Assembly (NCBI GenBank): GCA_012727545.1 | Contig: JAAYHA010000090.1 | Span: forward strand, 1-32,282 | Length of the DNA stretch: 32,282 nt | Direction: 5' to 3' | DNA from: Synergistaceae bacterium | GTDB lineage: Bacteria; Synergistota; Synergistia; Synergistales; Synergistaceae | In this document: one piece after another, positions 25,982-32,190 of the stretch | Layout of the letters: every line of letters begins with the position of its first letter | Position numbering within the stretch: the stretch's first letter is position 1 | The notes under the pieces: model-generated | Seen by the model: only the letters and a program-made list of their open reading frames with translations | Told to the model about the DNA's origin: nothing | Database searches by the model: none | Program-made: the position numbers and the translations under genes

Positions 25982-26209
25982 TCAGCTTATATTGACTATA
26001 TTTATCTCCAGCCCCTCATCCTTAAGGCCTTCTATACATCCCAGCATGTCTCCTAAAAGTTCTGAAGGGGTGAAGACCGTTACTTCTCCTTTTTTAGGGT
26101 CGTCTGTCCTCAGGAGTCCTATGCCTTCGCATGCGTCTATAGTCCAACTGATATAGTATATATCCTTTTGCGGGACCTTAAGCGAGATAACGCTCAGTTG
26201 AGGCTTCAC
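25982..26209 (-). CDS. 75-aa protein resembling the DUF4911 family
   Basis: LKVPQKDIYYISWTIDACEGIGLLRTDDPKKGEVTVFTPSELLGDMLGCIEGLKDEG; start overlaps mltG stop. Confidence 0.65.
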   Translation of the reverse strand: MKPQLSVISLKVPQKDIYYISWTIDACEGIGLLRTDDPKKGEVTVFTPSELLGDMLGCIEGLKDEGLEINIVNIS

Positions 26210-27213
26210 TCGGTCCTCTCCCGCTGTTTTCTAAGATGTTCCTCGTATGTTTTGCTGAATATGTGGCTTCCTTTTGAAGTTGCAAAGAAAAAAAGGTAGT
26301 CTGTCTTAGCGGGCTGAAGCGCGCTTATCCATGAATCTTCCGAAGGAACGGATATCGGTCCCGGGGGAAGTCCGCTGTTTCTATAGGTGTTGTAGGGAGA
26401 ATCGATCTCCAGGTCTTTGTATGTAAGGCTCTTCTTTTTTATTCCCAGTTCGTCCCAGCAATAGATAACGGTGGCGCATGACTGGAGGGGCATCCATTTT
26501 TCTATCCTGTTTAAAAAGATACCGGCAAGAATGGGACGCTCTTCCTTTATCTTTGCCTCGCCCTCGACTATGGAAGCGAGTATCCCTCTCTGAGAAGTGA
26601 ATTTCTTGTCCGCGTTGTCCGGGAGGAACTTCCCCACCCTTTCCATCCATAACCTTGAAGCTCTCTGTACTGTCTGTTCTCCGACACTGTTGCCCGGAGC
26701 CAGGGAATAAGTTTCAGGAAGTAAGAAGACTATCCTGTCCCTTGGATCATCCGGCAGCAGCTCATGAAGCTCAGCGGGGAAATTATTATTTTCAGAGAGG
26801 GCCTTTAAAAGCCTGTCATCACCTTCGGGAAGTCTCAGTGCGGAGTTGATCGTACTGTACCTTGTTCCGGGTATTATCGTTACGTTATGAGTTACAGGCC
26901 TGGCTGCCTTAAGTTGGTTTGCCACAGTTATCTCATCACCGGGGGCAATAAGGTATGTTCCGGGCTTGAGAGTCCTGTCGATCTCAAGCTTGATCATCCA
27001 TTTGATAAGCTTATTGGCATCTTTGACCACGCCGGCCTCTTTCAGCGCCCTTGCGGCCTGTCCTGCAGACATCCCCCCGGTTACAGTGACTTCGATCTTT
27101 TTTGATGAGTAAGCGAACATATCAGGATATATGGCCGGCATAACAAAGCAAAGGAAACAGAAAAGTATCAGGGCTGTTACAGATGGTATCAGGTCTTTTG
27201 TCCTGTTCGTCAA
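26206..27213 (-). CDS. mltG: endolytic transglycosylase MltG (YceG-like)
   Basis: LASIVEGEAKIKEERPILAGIFLNRIEKWMPLQSCATVIYCW, SPYNTYRNSGLPPGPISVPSEDSWISALQPAKTDYLFFF. TTG start at 27213 preceded by GGGAGAG preferred to the ORF-track ATG at 27270. Confidence 0.88.
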   Translation of the reverse strand: MTNRTKDLIPSVTALILFCFLCFVMPAIYPDMFAYSSKKIEVTVTGGMSAGQAARALKEAGVVKDANKLIKWMIKLEIDRTLKPGTYLIAPGDEITVANQLKAARPVTHNVTIIPGTRYSTINSALRLPEGDDRLLKALSENNNFPAELHELLPDDPRDRIVFLLPETYSLAPGNSVGEQTVQRASRLWMERVGKFLPDNADKKFTSQRGILASIVEGEAKIKEERPILAGIFLNRIEKWMPLQSCATVIYCWDELGIKKKSLTYKDLEIDSPYNTYRNSGLPPGPISVPSEDSWISALQPAKTDYLFFFATSKGSHIFSKTYEEHLRKQRERTE

Positions 27214-27331
27214 AAAATTCTCTCCCAACTCTCCACGGCTTGTCCAATGGTCCAATGTTTGAAAGTACACACGTAGGAATTATACCTTTAATGGCGGTAA
27301 GGATAAATAGCGAAGTTGCCTGAAAGATATC

Positions 27332-27686: not shown

Positions 27687-27715
27687 TTGACATTTAACTA
27701 AAAGGAGAGTATATA
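27687..27715 (+). promoter_or_regulatory. sigma70 promoter of serine operon: TTGACA-N17-TATATA
   Basis: Consensus -35 TTGACA 27687-27692, 17-nt spacer, -10 TATATA 27710-27715; expected start about 35 nt before the leader ORF. Confidence 0.8.
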
Positions 27716-27756
27716 TGTTAACCATTCAACGGGGACACAAGAAAGGAGCGCTTTGA

Positions 27757-27894
27757 ATGAGGAGACCAGCATATCTTGTTTTTAACGGCATATCGTCATC
27801 TTCTCTCTCTTCCGGCGTTTCTTCCTCATGCGGCGGCTCTGGTTGTCATTGCCGGTCCCGAAACGTGTACCCGATGAATAGAGAAAATAACTAA
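27757..27894 (+). CDS. 45-aa leader peptide rich in Ser/Gly/Cys (attenuator leader)
   Basis: ATG 27757 with RBS AAAGGAG at about 27743-27749. Translation MRRPAYLVFNGISSSSLSSGVSSSCGGSGCHCRSRNVYPMNRENN*; 11 Ser, 5 Gly, 3 Cys codons; followed by terminator/antiterminator. Confidence 0.8.
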   Translation: MRRPAYLVFNGISSSSLSSGVSSSCGGSGCHCRSRNVYPMNRENN

Positions 27895-27958
27895 ATTTTC
27901 TAGAACATCAAGGCGTTTCAGGGACCGGAGGAATTTCTTCCGGTCCCTTTTGTATTTA
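27815..27958 (+). promoter_or_regulatory. transcription attenuator: competing leader pairings upstream of serine biosynthesis genes
   Basis: Antiterminator CCGGTCCC-GAAACG (27852-27865) pairs with CGTTTC-A-GGGACCGG (27914-27928), 14 bp with one bulged A. Its 3' arm is also the 5' arm of the terminator. A second GGCGTTTC copy at 27814-27821 can pair with GAAACGT (27860-27866). Confidence 0.78.
27921..27953 (+). terminator. rho-independent terminator of the attenuator
   Basis: GGGACCGGAGGA-ATT-TCTTCCGGTCCC (12 bp with one G-U) followed by TTTTGT. Confidence 0.88.
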
Positions 27959-27994
27959 AAAAATTTTGATCATCAAAATAAGGAGGAAAAATGA

Positions 27995-29140
27995 ATGAAC
28001 ACGAAATATCTGCTTACCCCAGGCCCGGTGGAACTGCCGGCAGAAGTACTGAGGGCTGGTGCACGTCCGCTTATAGGACACAGGTGCCCTGCTTTTTCAC
28101 AGCTCTTTACCGGGATCGAAAACAAGCTCCGGGAACTGTTAAAAAGCGAAGGACCGGTAATAATACTTCCCTCTTCCGGGACGGGAGCCCTTGAATGCAT
28201 GGCGGTCAATTTTCTTGAAAAGGGCGACAAATTTATTTCTATCTCATGCGGCGTTTTTGGCAACAGATTTCGTGAGATTGCACTTAGAACAGGTGCTGAA
28301 GGCATCAATATCGATGTTCAGTTCGGCGACGCTGTGACACCGGCGATCGCAGCGGAAGCAGTTAAAAACAATCCCGACTGTAAGGTTATGATGATAACCC
28401 AAAATGAAACATCAACAGGAGTTGTCAATCCCATCAAAGAAATAATAGCGGCAATTCCCGAAAAAGATCGCCCTCTCATATTGGTAGACGGGGTCAGTTC
28501 CGTCGGGGCAATGGAATGTTTTCCGCAGGAATGGGGTATCGATGCGATAGGCACTGCTTCTCAAAAAGGGCTGCTGACACCTCCGGGACTCGGCCTCGTA
28601 TGGCTTTCTGAAAAAGCATGGAATGCGCTTGAAGGAAAAACATGTCCCAGTTACAGCTATGACCTGAAACTCCACAGAAAAGACCTGGAGGCGAAATCCC
28701 CCGCAAACCCCTTTACTCCTCCGGTGTCCCTCTACTATGCCCTTGATGAGGCACTTAATGAGATTTTGGAAGTTGGAACAGAGTCCTGGTTCAAATCCAG
28801 AAAGAAGTACGCAGATGCACTGGCGGCCGGACTTGAAGCAATGGGATTCGATCTGTTGGTCAAGAGTCCGGAGGCGCGCTCACCGGGAGTTACAGCCTTC
28901 AGATATCCCGTAGGCGATACAGAAGCAGTTCGCAAAAAACTTCGCGCGATGGGAATAGAAACAGCGGGCGGACAGGGAAAACTTAAAGGAGAACTTATCA
29001 GGGCCGCACATTATAACAATTGGGGATGGCCCGAACTTTGCATCATTCTTGGTTCGCTCTACGCGGCCGCCGATATGGCTAAAGCCATGAAAAAAGACTT
29101 CCTGGCAGAAGCCTGGAATGTATGGAACAGGGAGGACTGA
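27995..29140 (+). CDS. class V aminotransferase (alanine-glyoxylate / serine-pyruvate family); probable phosphoserine or serine transaminase
   Basis: YLLTPGPVELPAEVL, SGTGALECMAVNFLEKGDKF, ILVDGVSSVGAMECFPQEWGIDAIGTASQKGLLTPPGLGLVWLS; directly upstream of serA. Confidence 0.93.
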   Translation: MNTKYLLTPGPVELPAEVLRAGARPLIGHRCPAFSQLFTGIENKLRELLKSEGPVIILPSSGTGALECMAVNFLEKGDKFISISCGVFGNRFREIALRTGAEGINIDVQFGDAVTPAIAAEAVKNNPDCKVMMITQNETSTGVVNPIKEIIAAIPEKDRPLILVDGVSSVGAMECFPQEWGIDAIGTASQKGLLTPPGLGLVWLSEKAWNALEGKTCPSYSYDLKLHRKDLEAKSPANPFTPPVSLYYALDEALNEILEVGTESWFKSRKKYADALAAGLEAMGFDLLVKSPEARSPGVTAFRYPVGDTEAVRKKLRAMGIETAGGQGKLKGELIRAAHYNNWGWPELCIILGSLYAAADMAKAMKKDFLAEAWNVWNRED

Positions 29141-30795
29141 TGGCGATGGCTGAAAATAAAAAATGGAAGGTACTGGTGGCCGAGACAGTTGGCGAGGCCG
29201 GACTTCAGATACTCAGGGATGCCCCTGACATTGAACTTATAGAAGAAGTTGGAATGTCACGCGAAAAACTGCTTAAAAAACTGCCCGAAATGGATGCAGT
29301 CCTAACCAGAAGCGGTACAAAGATGGACGAGGAAGCCCTTAACGCTGCTGTAAAATTAAAGGTAGTTGCCCGTGCAGGTGTCGGCGTCGACAATGTCAAT
29401 GTCCCTGTTGCGAGCCGCAAGGGAGTCGTGGTAATAAATGCACCTACCGGAAACACTCTTGCGGCAGCAGAGTTGACAATGGCTCTGATGCTTGGTCTCG
29501 TAAGAATGGTCCCCCAGGCATTCGGCTCACTCAAGAGCGGTGAATGGGACAGAAAAAGATTCTCAGGCCATCAGCTCAGCGGAAAGAAGGTACTCGTTCT
29601 TGGGCTTGGAAGGATAGGAGCTGCAGTTGCCCAACGCTGCCGTGCTTTTGGAATGGACGTGATGGCATACGATCCTTACACTCCCAAGAAAAAGGCCGAA
29701 TCACTCGGCATACCAATGAGGGAAGACCTTGCCGACGCGCTTTCCGTTGCTGACGTAGTTACCCTTCACATGCCGCTGACATCTGACACTACAAATCTTA
29801 TCGATGAAAAAATGCTGAAGGCATTTAAAAAGGGAGCGTATCTTATCAACTGTGCAAGAGGCGGCATAGTGGACGAAAAGGCTGCAGCTGATGCGGTAAG
29901 GGACGGAAGGCTTTCAGGGATAGCATTTGATGTCTATACTGCGGAACCTCTGTGTGAAGGCCACCCCTTTTTAGCCAAAGACATTGAGGACAGGATCGTT
30001 ATAACCCCGCACCTTGGAGCCAGTACTGAAGAGGCACAGACAGAGGTGGCAAAGATCGCTGCAGAGAACATGATAGCGGCACTGCGGGGAGAACCATATG
30101 AACATGCCGTCAATCTCCCCTTTCTGGAACAGAAACTCAACAAGGCCCAGAAGGCATTCCTGCAGCTTTCAAGGAAAATGGGAATACTCGGTGCAAAACT
30201 TGCGGAAACAGAGTGCGGAGCTGTCCATAGCTGCCACATTATGCTTCGCGGGGACATGTTCAATGAAGATGAACCAATGCCAAACAGGCTTTGTGCTTAC
30301 AGTATAGCTGTACTAAAAGGCCTTTTTGAGGTCAGCCGGGGTCCGGAAGTTTCATACATGCTTGCTCCTCTGCTTGCCAAGGACAGCGGTCTGACAGTGG
30401 AAGAGAGCATCGGAGATCCCAAAACATATAAAAACACTGTTGAGATAATCCTGGATGCCGAGAAATGCAAAGTGTCGCTTATAGGTACCATCACTGAAGA
30501 GGGCCGTATGCGTATCGTAAAGGTAAACGAATATTGGCTCGACTTTGTTCCCAACGGTAAGCTCATACTTTTCCAGAATCATGACAGGCCCGGAGTAATA
30601 GGAAAGATCGGAAATATACTTGGCGAAGCTAAGATCAACATTGCTAATTTTGCCCTTGGAAGAAAGGACAACAGCGGTCTTGCCCTAGGTGCGCTTGAGA
30701 TAGACAGCGACATTGACGAATCGATCAGGAAAAAACTGGAAAAGAGCGGGGACATGCTCTGGCTCACCCTAATAGATTTTACGGACGCTGAGTAG
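29140..30795 (+). CDS. serA: D-3-phosphoglycerate dehydrogenase with C-terminal ACT domain
   Basis: AVLTRSGTKMDEEALNAAVKLKVVARAGVGVDNVNVPVASRKGVVVINAPTGNTLAAAELTMALML, VLGLGRIGAAVAQR; ACT-type C-terminus LILFQNHDRPGVIGKIGNILGEAKINIANFALGRK. ATGA overlap with the aminotransferase stop. Confidence 0.97.
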   Translation: MAMAENKKWKVLVAETVGEAGLQILRDAPDIELIEEVGMSREKLLKKLPEMDAVLTRSGTKMDEEALNAAVKLKVVARAGVGVDNVNVPVASRKGVVVINAPTGNTLAAAELTMALMLGLVRMVPQAFGSLKSGEWDRKRFSGHQLSGKKVLVLGLGRIGAAVAQRCRAFGMDVMAYDPYTPKKKAESLGIPMREDLADALSVADVVTLHMPLTSDTTNLIDEKMLKAFKKGAYLINCARGGIVDEKAAADAVRDGRLSGIAFDVYTAEPLCEGHPFLAKDIEDRIVITPHLGASTEEAQTEVAKIAAENMIAALRGEPYEHAVNLPFLEQKLNKAQKAFLQLSRKMGILGAKLAETECGAVHSCHIMLRGDMFNEDEPMPNRLCAYSIAVLKGLFEVSRGPEVSYMLAPLLAKDSGLTVEESIGDPKTYKNTVEIILDAEKCKVSLIGTITEEGRMRIVKVNEYWLDFVPNGKLILFQNHDRPGVIGKIGNILGEAKINIANFALGRKDNSGLALGALEIDSDIDESIRKKLEKSGDMLWLTLIDFTDAE

Positions 30796-31034: not shown

Positions 31035-31460
31035 ATGCTGAACTACTATTGGCCCATAGGATTTATCGTTTTTTCAAATGTTCTGTATCACGTCTGTTCA
31101 AAATCATTATCAGGCGGAGCTGACCCATATTTTTCGCTCCTTGTAACATACCTGGTAGCAGCATCGATCTGCCTGGGCCTCTACCTCTACACCGGCAACG
31201 TCAAGGATATTTCCATTGACGTAAGAGGGATAAAATGGAACAGCATACTGCTTGGTGCAGCTATAGTCTGTCTTGAGCTTGGATTTATAATGATGTACAA
31301 AGTCGGCTGGAACATCAGTATTGGATCGCTGGTAGCCAATATTTGCCTTGCTGTCGCACTGGTACTGATAGGAGTTTTCTTTTACAGGGAAAACCTTAGC
31401 ATGAACAACATCATCGGAATGATCCTCTGCATTTCAGGGTTGATATTTATCAACCGATAA
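31035..31460 (+). CDS. half-size DMT superfamily (EamA/SMR-like) membrane protein
   Basis: 141 aa with about four hydrophobic segments; C-terminal LVLIGVFFYRENLSMNNIIGMILCISGLIFINR is DMT-like. Confidence 0.75.
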   Translation: MLNYYWPIGFIVFSNVLYHVCSKSLSGGADPYFSLLVTYLVAASICLGLYLYTGNVKDISIDVRGIKWNSILLGAAIVCLELGFIMMYKVGWNISIGSLVANICLAVALVLIGVFFYRENLSMNNIIGMILCISGLIFINR

Positions 31461-31560: not shown

Positions 31561-32190
31561 TTATTGCAGTGCTTTGTCAAGTATCGCTGTTGCCTTCTCT
31601 GCGTTTATGCTTAGCTGCTGAAGAGCCTCTGTCATACGGGCTTTGAAGTCCGCTGCAAAAGTTTCGTCAGTTACGCCGGGAAGATTTATCTTTACATTGT
31701 AAGCTGCAGCTTTTCCGGCCGCTTCTCCCAGAAGTGCAGCGCTTCCTGCATCGCTTATCGTATTGGTGTTTCCGTTTTTTGCTGCCAGATAAGCCAGCTC
31801 AGTCATTTCTACACATGCTTCCAAGGTAAGAAGTGGGACCTCTGTTGCAAGTTTTGAGGCCTCTCCCATGGCTTTTTTGCGGATACACTTCTCTTCCTCT
31901 GTGGCCTTTGGCATTTTCATTGCTGCCATAAAAGTATTGAAGGATTCGGTGTCCCTGTTCATCAGCTCTACGAACTTGAATCTCAGGGACTCGCTTTTGC
32001 CTACTACGTCCTCCATCAGCTGCCAGCTCTCTTTGTATTTTTCCTTGCCTATAGTAAGGTTGGCTACCATTGAAACGAGTGCTGAACCAAGAGAGGCGCA
32101 AAGGGCCGCTACGCTTCCTCCCCCGGGTGCCGGTGAATCGGAGGCAAGTTCGTCGAGAAACGCGCGTATTTCCATTCTTTCAAATTTCAT
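31561..32190 (-). CDS. cyclodeaminase/cyclohydrolase family protein (FTCD C-terminal domain-like; methenyl-THF cyclohydrolase FchA-like)
   Basis: FLDELASDSPAPGGGSVAALCASLGSALVSMVANLTIGKEKY. Confidence 0.9.
   Translation of the reverse strand: MKFERMEIRAFLDELASDSPAPGGGSVAALCASLGSALVSMVANLTIGKEKYKESWQLMEDVVGKSESLRFKFVELMNRDTESFNTFMAAMKMPKATEEEKCIRKKAMGEASKLATEVPLLTLEACVEMTELAYLAAKNGNTNTISDAGSAALLGEAAGKAAAYNVKINLPGVTDETFAADFKARMTEALQQLSINAEKATAILDKALQ

Follow-up and report, generated by a model that had tools for sequence, protein, structure and literature searches.

Organization of the Locus

The window, meaning the whole stretch of 32,282 nucleotides that was analyzed, is a contig of a metagenome-assembled genome of Synergistota. 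A putative promoter, a short Ser-rich open reading frame (ORF) and an intrinsic terminator lie in this order upstream of genes for an aminotransferase and 3-phosphoglycerate dehydrogenase (serA). The features, all on the forward strand, are as follows.

27687..27692 (+), −35 box TTGACA of the putative promoter (sequence; TTGACA-N16-18-TATA in relatives)
27710..27715 (+), −10 box TATATA after a 17-nt spacer (sequence; TATA(A/T)-type in relatives)
27742..27748 (+), Shine-Dalgarno sequence AAAGGAG of the leader ORF (sequence; a Shine-Dalgarno sequence also precedes the leaders of many relatives)
27757..27894 (+), leader peptide ORF starting at ATG 27757, 45 codons with 11 Ser (all UCN), 3 Cys and 5 Gly (sequence and comparison)
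27793..27840 (+), predicted Ser control-codon region, codons 13–28, with ten UCN codons (ribosome-masked folding)
27852..27865 (+), region 2, 5′ strand of the antiterminator, CCGGTCCCGAAACG, within the leader ORF (covaries with region 3)
27914..27928 (+), region 3, 3′ strand of the antiterminator, CGTTTCAGGGACCGG, whose 3′ part is the 5′ arm of the terminator (covaries with region 2)
27921..27947 (+), intrinsic terminator hairpin (regions 3:4), GGGACCGGA-GGAATTTCT-TCCGGTCCC, followed by TTTTG (sequence and folding)
27980..27986 (+), Shine-Dalgarno sequence AAGGAGG of the first structural gene (sequence)
27995..29140 (+), aminotransferase of class V (AGXT-type), presumed to act on phosphoserine or serine (nearest solved chain 2dr1)
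29122..30795 (+), serA, 3-phosphoglycerate dehydrogenase (TIGR01327 above cut-off; true start probably 29140 or 29146)

The original prediction had read a TTGACA-N17-TATATA promoter, a ribosome-binding site, a 45-codon ORF and a terminator followed by aminotransferase–serA, and each element was recovered in its place; the leader peptide that it gave for 27757–27894 matches exactly (MRRPAYLVFNGISSSSLSSGVSSSCGGSGCHCRSRNVYPMNRENN). A strict sigma-70 consensus scan of the window alone does not call the promoter at 27687–27715, because TATATA lacks the T at position 6. Of 57 relatives, 38 have a TTGACA-N16-18-TATA-type sequence 5′ of the leader (0.1 expected), and this conservation supports the putative promoter in the present genome. 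The upstream neighbor, mltG (26206–27270), lies on the opposite strand and is divergent from the operon. An upstream 17-mer common to relatives was considered as a repeat and rejected, being single-copy sequence beside mltG.

In relatives that carry the aminotransferase gene on a sufficiently long contig, serA lies directly 3′ of it. The nearest solved chain to the aminotransferase is 2dr1, a hypothetical serine aminotransferase. Of 41 relatives, 37 have no canonical SerC, the present genome being one of them, and this absence suggests that the AGXT-type enzyme is likely the transaminase of the pathway. The listed ATG of serA (29122) falls inside the aminotransferase gene; because a stop occurs among the matching upstream codons in two relatives, translation probably starts at 29140 or 29146. 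Four relatives seem to have in-frame stops in serA; these were discounted, as they lie upstream of the true start or disappear on alignment. Downstream of serA are a gene for a small SMR-like membrane protein (31035–31460, forward strand) and, on the reverse strand, a gene for methenyltetrahydrofolate cyclohydrolase (FchA; 31561–32190), which belongs to one-carbon metabolism, adjacent to that of serine.

Conservation of the Leader in Synergistota

The aminotransferase was detected at E ≤ 1e-95 in 67 of 188 genomes of the phylum, and upstream DNA was taken for all usable loci. At 60 orthologous aminotransferase–serA loci (the curated set), a short Ser-rich ORF is followed by a terminator, and almost all relatives have a terminator 3′ of the leader. 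When ORFs were called blindly (20–60 codons, at least 18% Ser and at least six Ser), 53 of the 60 loci yielded one on the operon strand, compared with 8 for the opposite strand and roughly 7 for shuffled sequences; the loci are related by descent, and these leader counts and the codon counts given below are therefore non-independent. A Ser-rich ORF and terminator also lie directly 5′ of serA alone in nine genomes that have no neighboring aminotransferase gene (G032, G044, G053, G060, G067, G069, G073, G077, and G086). Counting both arrangements, the leaders span nine order-level families. Comparison of orthologous upstream regions, the check that the original prediction had proposed, shows that the leader, the mutually exclusive hairpins and the link to serine genes are conserved and co-evolve through the phylum.

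Serine Codons of the Leader

The leader peptide has a marked excess of Ser relative to the frequency of Ser in the genes of the window (probability of at least 11 Ser among 44 codons, 6e-5). Across the 60 leaders, Ser accounts for 24.6% of codons, versus 7.2% in the downstream gene, and the ratio of UCN to AGY codons is 478:72 in leaders versus 1263:376 in genes (Fisher p = 3.6e-7). Within the genus, Ser columns vary mostly at the third base and remain UCN, a pattern expected if decoding, not the RNA letters, is conserved. The preference for UCN agrees with ribosome profiling of Bacillus subtilis, in which UCN but not AGC or AGU codons become slow during serine starvation (PMC3862929), and with the theory by which an attenuator relies on the codon read by the tRNA that is first to become uncharged (PMC1183508). 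Serine, having six codons, offers a stringent test of this selective-charging theory, that is, of which isoacceptor a starvation sensor uses, and the leaders prefer UCN.

At the level of the peptide, the core SSxxSSGxSSSCGGSGCxC is kept within the genus, whereas the leaders outside it share only a high Ser content, their length and where they lie with respect to the terminator. Conservation of the core would suit a small functional peptide rich in Ser and Cys, perhaps one that is modified or binds metal, with its adjacency to serA being secondary. Such a peptide is very unlikely given how little is retained outside the genus, the overlap of the ORF with an antiterminator strand whose covariation involves the terminator (see below), and the fact that the ORF precedes serA whether or not the aminotransferase gene is present.

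The leader had been described as rich in Ser, Gly and Cys. The codon shares bear out Ser as clearly the sensed residue; Cys and Gly are enriched as well, Cys 3.5-fold (5.6% of leader codons versus 1.6% in the downstream gene) and Gly slightly, 1.4-fold (13.2% versus 9.6%), but sensing of either is conjectural. Serine is the precursor of both residues, and the segment SSSCGGSGC is part of the core kept in the genus; the leader might thus sense the whole serine family (Ser, Cys and Gly), so that lack of any serine product would turn the operon on. This extended sensing is a possibility that we regard as doubtful. The enrichment of Gly is weak, many relatives' leaders contain just one or two Cys codons, and a ribosome stalled at Cys codon 30 or 32 of the present leader would be near enough to region 2 to mask it and favor termination.

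Mutually Exclusive Antiterminator and Terminator

The RNA of the locus folds more stably than shuffled sequences (z = −4.2; 0 of 200 shuffles). The original prediction of a 14-bp complementarity with one bulge between 27852–27865 and 27914–27928 was confirmed at every pair: region 2 (CCGGTCCCGAAACG) and region 3 (CGTTTCAGGGACCGG) form all 14 pairs around one bulged A, and the pairing covaries in relatives. As the 3′ part of region 3 is also the 5′ arm of the terminator, antiterminator and terminator are mutually exclusive.

In the alignable group (14 distinct sequences), three strands change together at one position, C to U in region 2, G to A in region 3 and C to U in region 4, and both pairings are kept at this position in all sequences, with one G-U wobble. 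A further G-C to A-U change occurs in the lower antiterminator helix. The table of pairs for this alignment contains two pairs with double changes, compared with 1.6 expected in shuffles, and the number of paired cells together with the covariation score is hardly reached by shuffles and never by slid controls. Because shuffles reach some of these measures, the claim of co-evolution rests on the three-strand change and on a swap test, which was limited to sequence close to the stop codon and in which terminators were exchanged between lineages.

Between lineages the strands are wholly different, with CCGGTCCCGAAACG/CGTTTCAGGGACCGG here, CGGTCTCAAAGCG/CGTTTTGAGATCG in G035, CGGCTTCTCGCCTCG/CGAGACGGGGAGCCG in G177 and GGGCTCCC/GGGAGCCT in G054, and each leader fits its own terminator. 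The mean native helix score is 21.3, versus 17.5 (sd 0.65) with lineage-deranged terminators, and in 5000 derangements the native score is never attained. In some distant lineages, such as families f5 and f8 and the G185/G074 group, the predicted region 2:3 helix scores no higher than helices with foreign partners; these may use another strand. A looser shuffle test, in which the leader was paired with the terminator arm by unrestricted duplex folding, gave p < 0.05 at 23 of 60 loci and is noisy because GC-rich arms pair with anything.

The hairpin at 27921–27947 has the form of an ordinary intrinsic terminator, as it would if it ended an upstream transcript and had no regulatory role. However, mltG, the gene upstream, is on the other strand, and the hairpin sits between promoter and operon with a 5′ arm that co-evolves with the leader ORF, which makes this origin scarcely credible.

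Ribosome Position and the Predicted Choice of Hairpin

The nascent RNA was folded with polymerase at 27936, where region 3 is complete and region 4 is unmade, under a 30-nt ribosome mask placed at each codon; the calculation assumes a ribosome footprint of −16 to +13 and equilibrium folding. For this genome, the predicted probability of the antiterminator is about 0.99 with the A site at each Ser codon as far as codon 28, drops from codon 29, is 0 at codons 32–39 and is back by codon 43. In folding of the full leader, the terminator has a probability of 0.01 with the ribosome at Ser codon 28 and of 1.0 at codons 31–42; thus, the last Ser codon before region 2 is predicted to be the last position that favors readthrough. 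The same masking pattern is predicted in most relatives tested. These constrained foldings accord with the original prediction, in that a ribosome on the Ser codons would leave the antiterminator free; a ribosome past them is predicted to abolish it.

The analogy with trp that had been drawn at the outset, taken strictly, suits most relatives but not this genome. For the majority of the relatives that were folded, three members of the genus among them, the antiterminator is predicted to be lost when a ribosome occupies the stop codon, because this codon comes only a few bases after region 2. Here and in the closest relatives, the reading frame runs on for another 25 nt; the stop codon of this genome lies 25 nt beyond region 2, and a ribosome parked there is predicted to leave region 2 unmasked. 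Repression would therefore depend on ribosome transit time, with the ribosome at about codons 30–42 as region 3 emerges. Also, no stable trp-like 1:2 protector hairpin is predicted in this genome, the antiterminator having a probability of 0.99 without a ribosome, and untranslated leader RNA would thus be expected to read through. Folding predicts protector-like behavior in a few relatives (G036, G022, and G009).

Model for Serine-Dependent Attenuation

We consider that the locus is a serine-specific, ribosome-mediated transcription attenuator, with a probability of about 0.9. RNA polymerase would start at the 27687–27715 promoter, and a ribosome would translate the Ser-rich ORF behind it. With ample Ser-tRNA(UCN), the ribosome would pass the Ser codons and cover region 2 while region 3 emerges, so that the antiterminator would be blocked, the hairpin at 27921–27947 would fold and transcription would end ahead of the aminotransferase gene. 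In serine shortage, the ribosome would stall at codons 13–28, leaving region 2 exposed to pair with region 3; the terminator would then be excluded and the aminotransferase–serA operon transcribed. Translation of the leader, termination in vivo and a response to Ser-tRNA charging are presumed in this scheme. The defining features of the his, leu and trp leader attenuators, namely the codon excess, its position, the terminator, the exclusive antiterminator and the placement of the control codons, all appear at this locus as read from the sequence and from predicted folds.

A more inclusive formulation would make this a phylum-wide, UCN-preferring and default-on serine attenuator, antiterminated without a ribosome and turned off only after the Ser codons have been passed, which would sense Ser together with Cys and perhaps Gly. 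In this full form the proposal is tentative and, on balance, improbable.

Relation to Known Systems

Leader-peptide attenuation is textbook knowledge for His, Trp, Leu, Ile/Val, Thr, and Phe, and for serine, T-boxes, repressors or orphan RNA motifs have been held responsible. The his, leu, trp, thr and phe attenuators of Proteobacteria resemble the present locus in having a translated leader rich in codons for the end product before a biosynthetic operon, and a 2:3 antiterminator and a 3:4 terminator that exclude each other, with ribosome position deciding between them. The present locus differs from them in its amino acid, serine, in its phylum, Synergistota, in a stop codon that comes 25 nt after region 2 and in the lack of a strong predicted 1:2 protector.

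Leader-peptide attenuation beyond Proteobacteria was likewise found by comparison in the case of the His-leader attenuators and T-boxes of Firmicutes, which concern histidine and different phyla; for Synergistota, the his study describes HisR repressors, not attenuators (PMC2965389, PMC9413887). The cysS uORF motif (uORFC-8-2) and the Cys-rich leaders of Actinobacteria similarly consist of a short uORF with the sensed codons and a proposed ribosome-mediated attenuation, but involve Cys only and different genes, and the mycobacterial ones have no terminator hairpin (PMC8632094, PMC1262725). The UCN-based sensing of serine in sinR of B. subtilis shares slow UCN decoding in serine shortage, but takes place within a protein-coding gene without a leader or terminator (PMC3862929).

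Two RNA elements act in the same pathway. The serC RNA motif of alphaproteobacteria (RF00517) is located upstream of serC–serA; it comprises two short stems for which occlusion of the ribosome-binding site has been proposed, with no leader ORF or terminator described (PMC1273637). The Ser T-box of Paenibacillus polymyxa couples serine biosynthesis to the charging of tRNA-Ser by direct binding of uncharged tRNA, without a leader peptide (PMC8002221). T-boxes also occur in Synergistota, including elsewhere in the present genome, and a T-box, riboswitch or serC-type element might accordingly be in control here, with the ORF being incidental. This reading is highly improbable, since no Rfam covariance model matches the locus even at E ≤ 5, including T-box (RF00230), serC (RF00517), any riboswitch and the leader families, and the UCN-rich signal is conserved at the level of coding.

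A leader-peptide attenuator for serine was not found in the literature covered, which included attenuator surveys and lay mostly outside subscription journals. The mechanism is known; its specificity for serine and its occurrence in this phylum are likely undescribed. A conserved serine attenuator would add a further amino acid, and a deep phylum, to the range of a known mechanism, and the Ser leaders would constitute a natural reporter for the charging of Ser-tRNA(UCN). They also suggest that the stop-codon position, the protector hairpin and the Ser run can drift far while the three-strand switch persists.

Divergent Loci

The Ser-rich leader is absent before the aminotransferase gene in G011, G030, G010, G138, and G150. 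Two of these genomes belong to genus g5 (G011, locus L013; G030, locus L043), in which the aminotransferase–serA operon lacks a Ser-rich leader ORF. The G030 locus retains a terminator and a matching complementary strand, and looks like a decayed or differently sensed attenuator. In G138 (L063), a tandem array of short AT-rich units (AGGCCTCTTATTTAACTTT...) takes the place of the leader.

The serA-only leaders of family f9 (L098–L101) are of the SCGNGSNSRSWSRNQD type, in which Ser residues are scattered rather than clustered and several Trp and Cys residues occur; control may therefore differ there. In the G185/G074/G181/G183 group (L076–L085), the Ser run lies inside a strong hairpin (CTTCCGG...CCGGAAG) and is itself also able to pair with the terminator arm, which suggests a longer, his-like chain of alternative hairpins.
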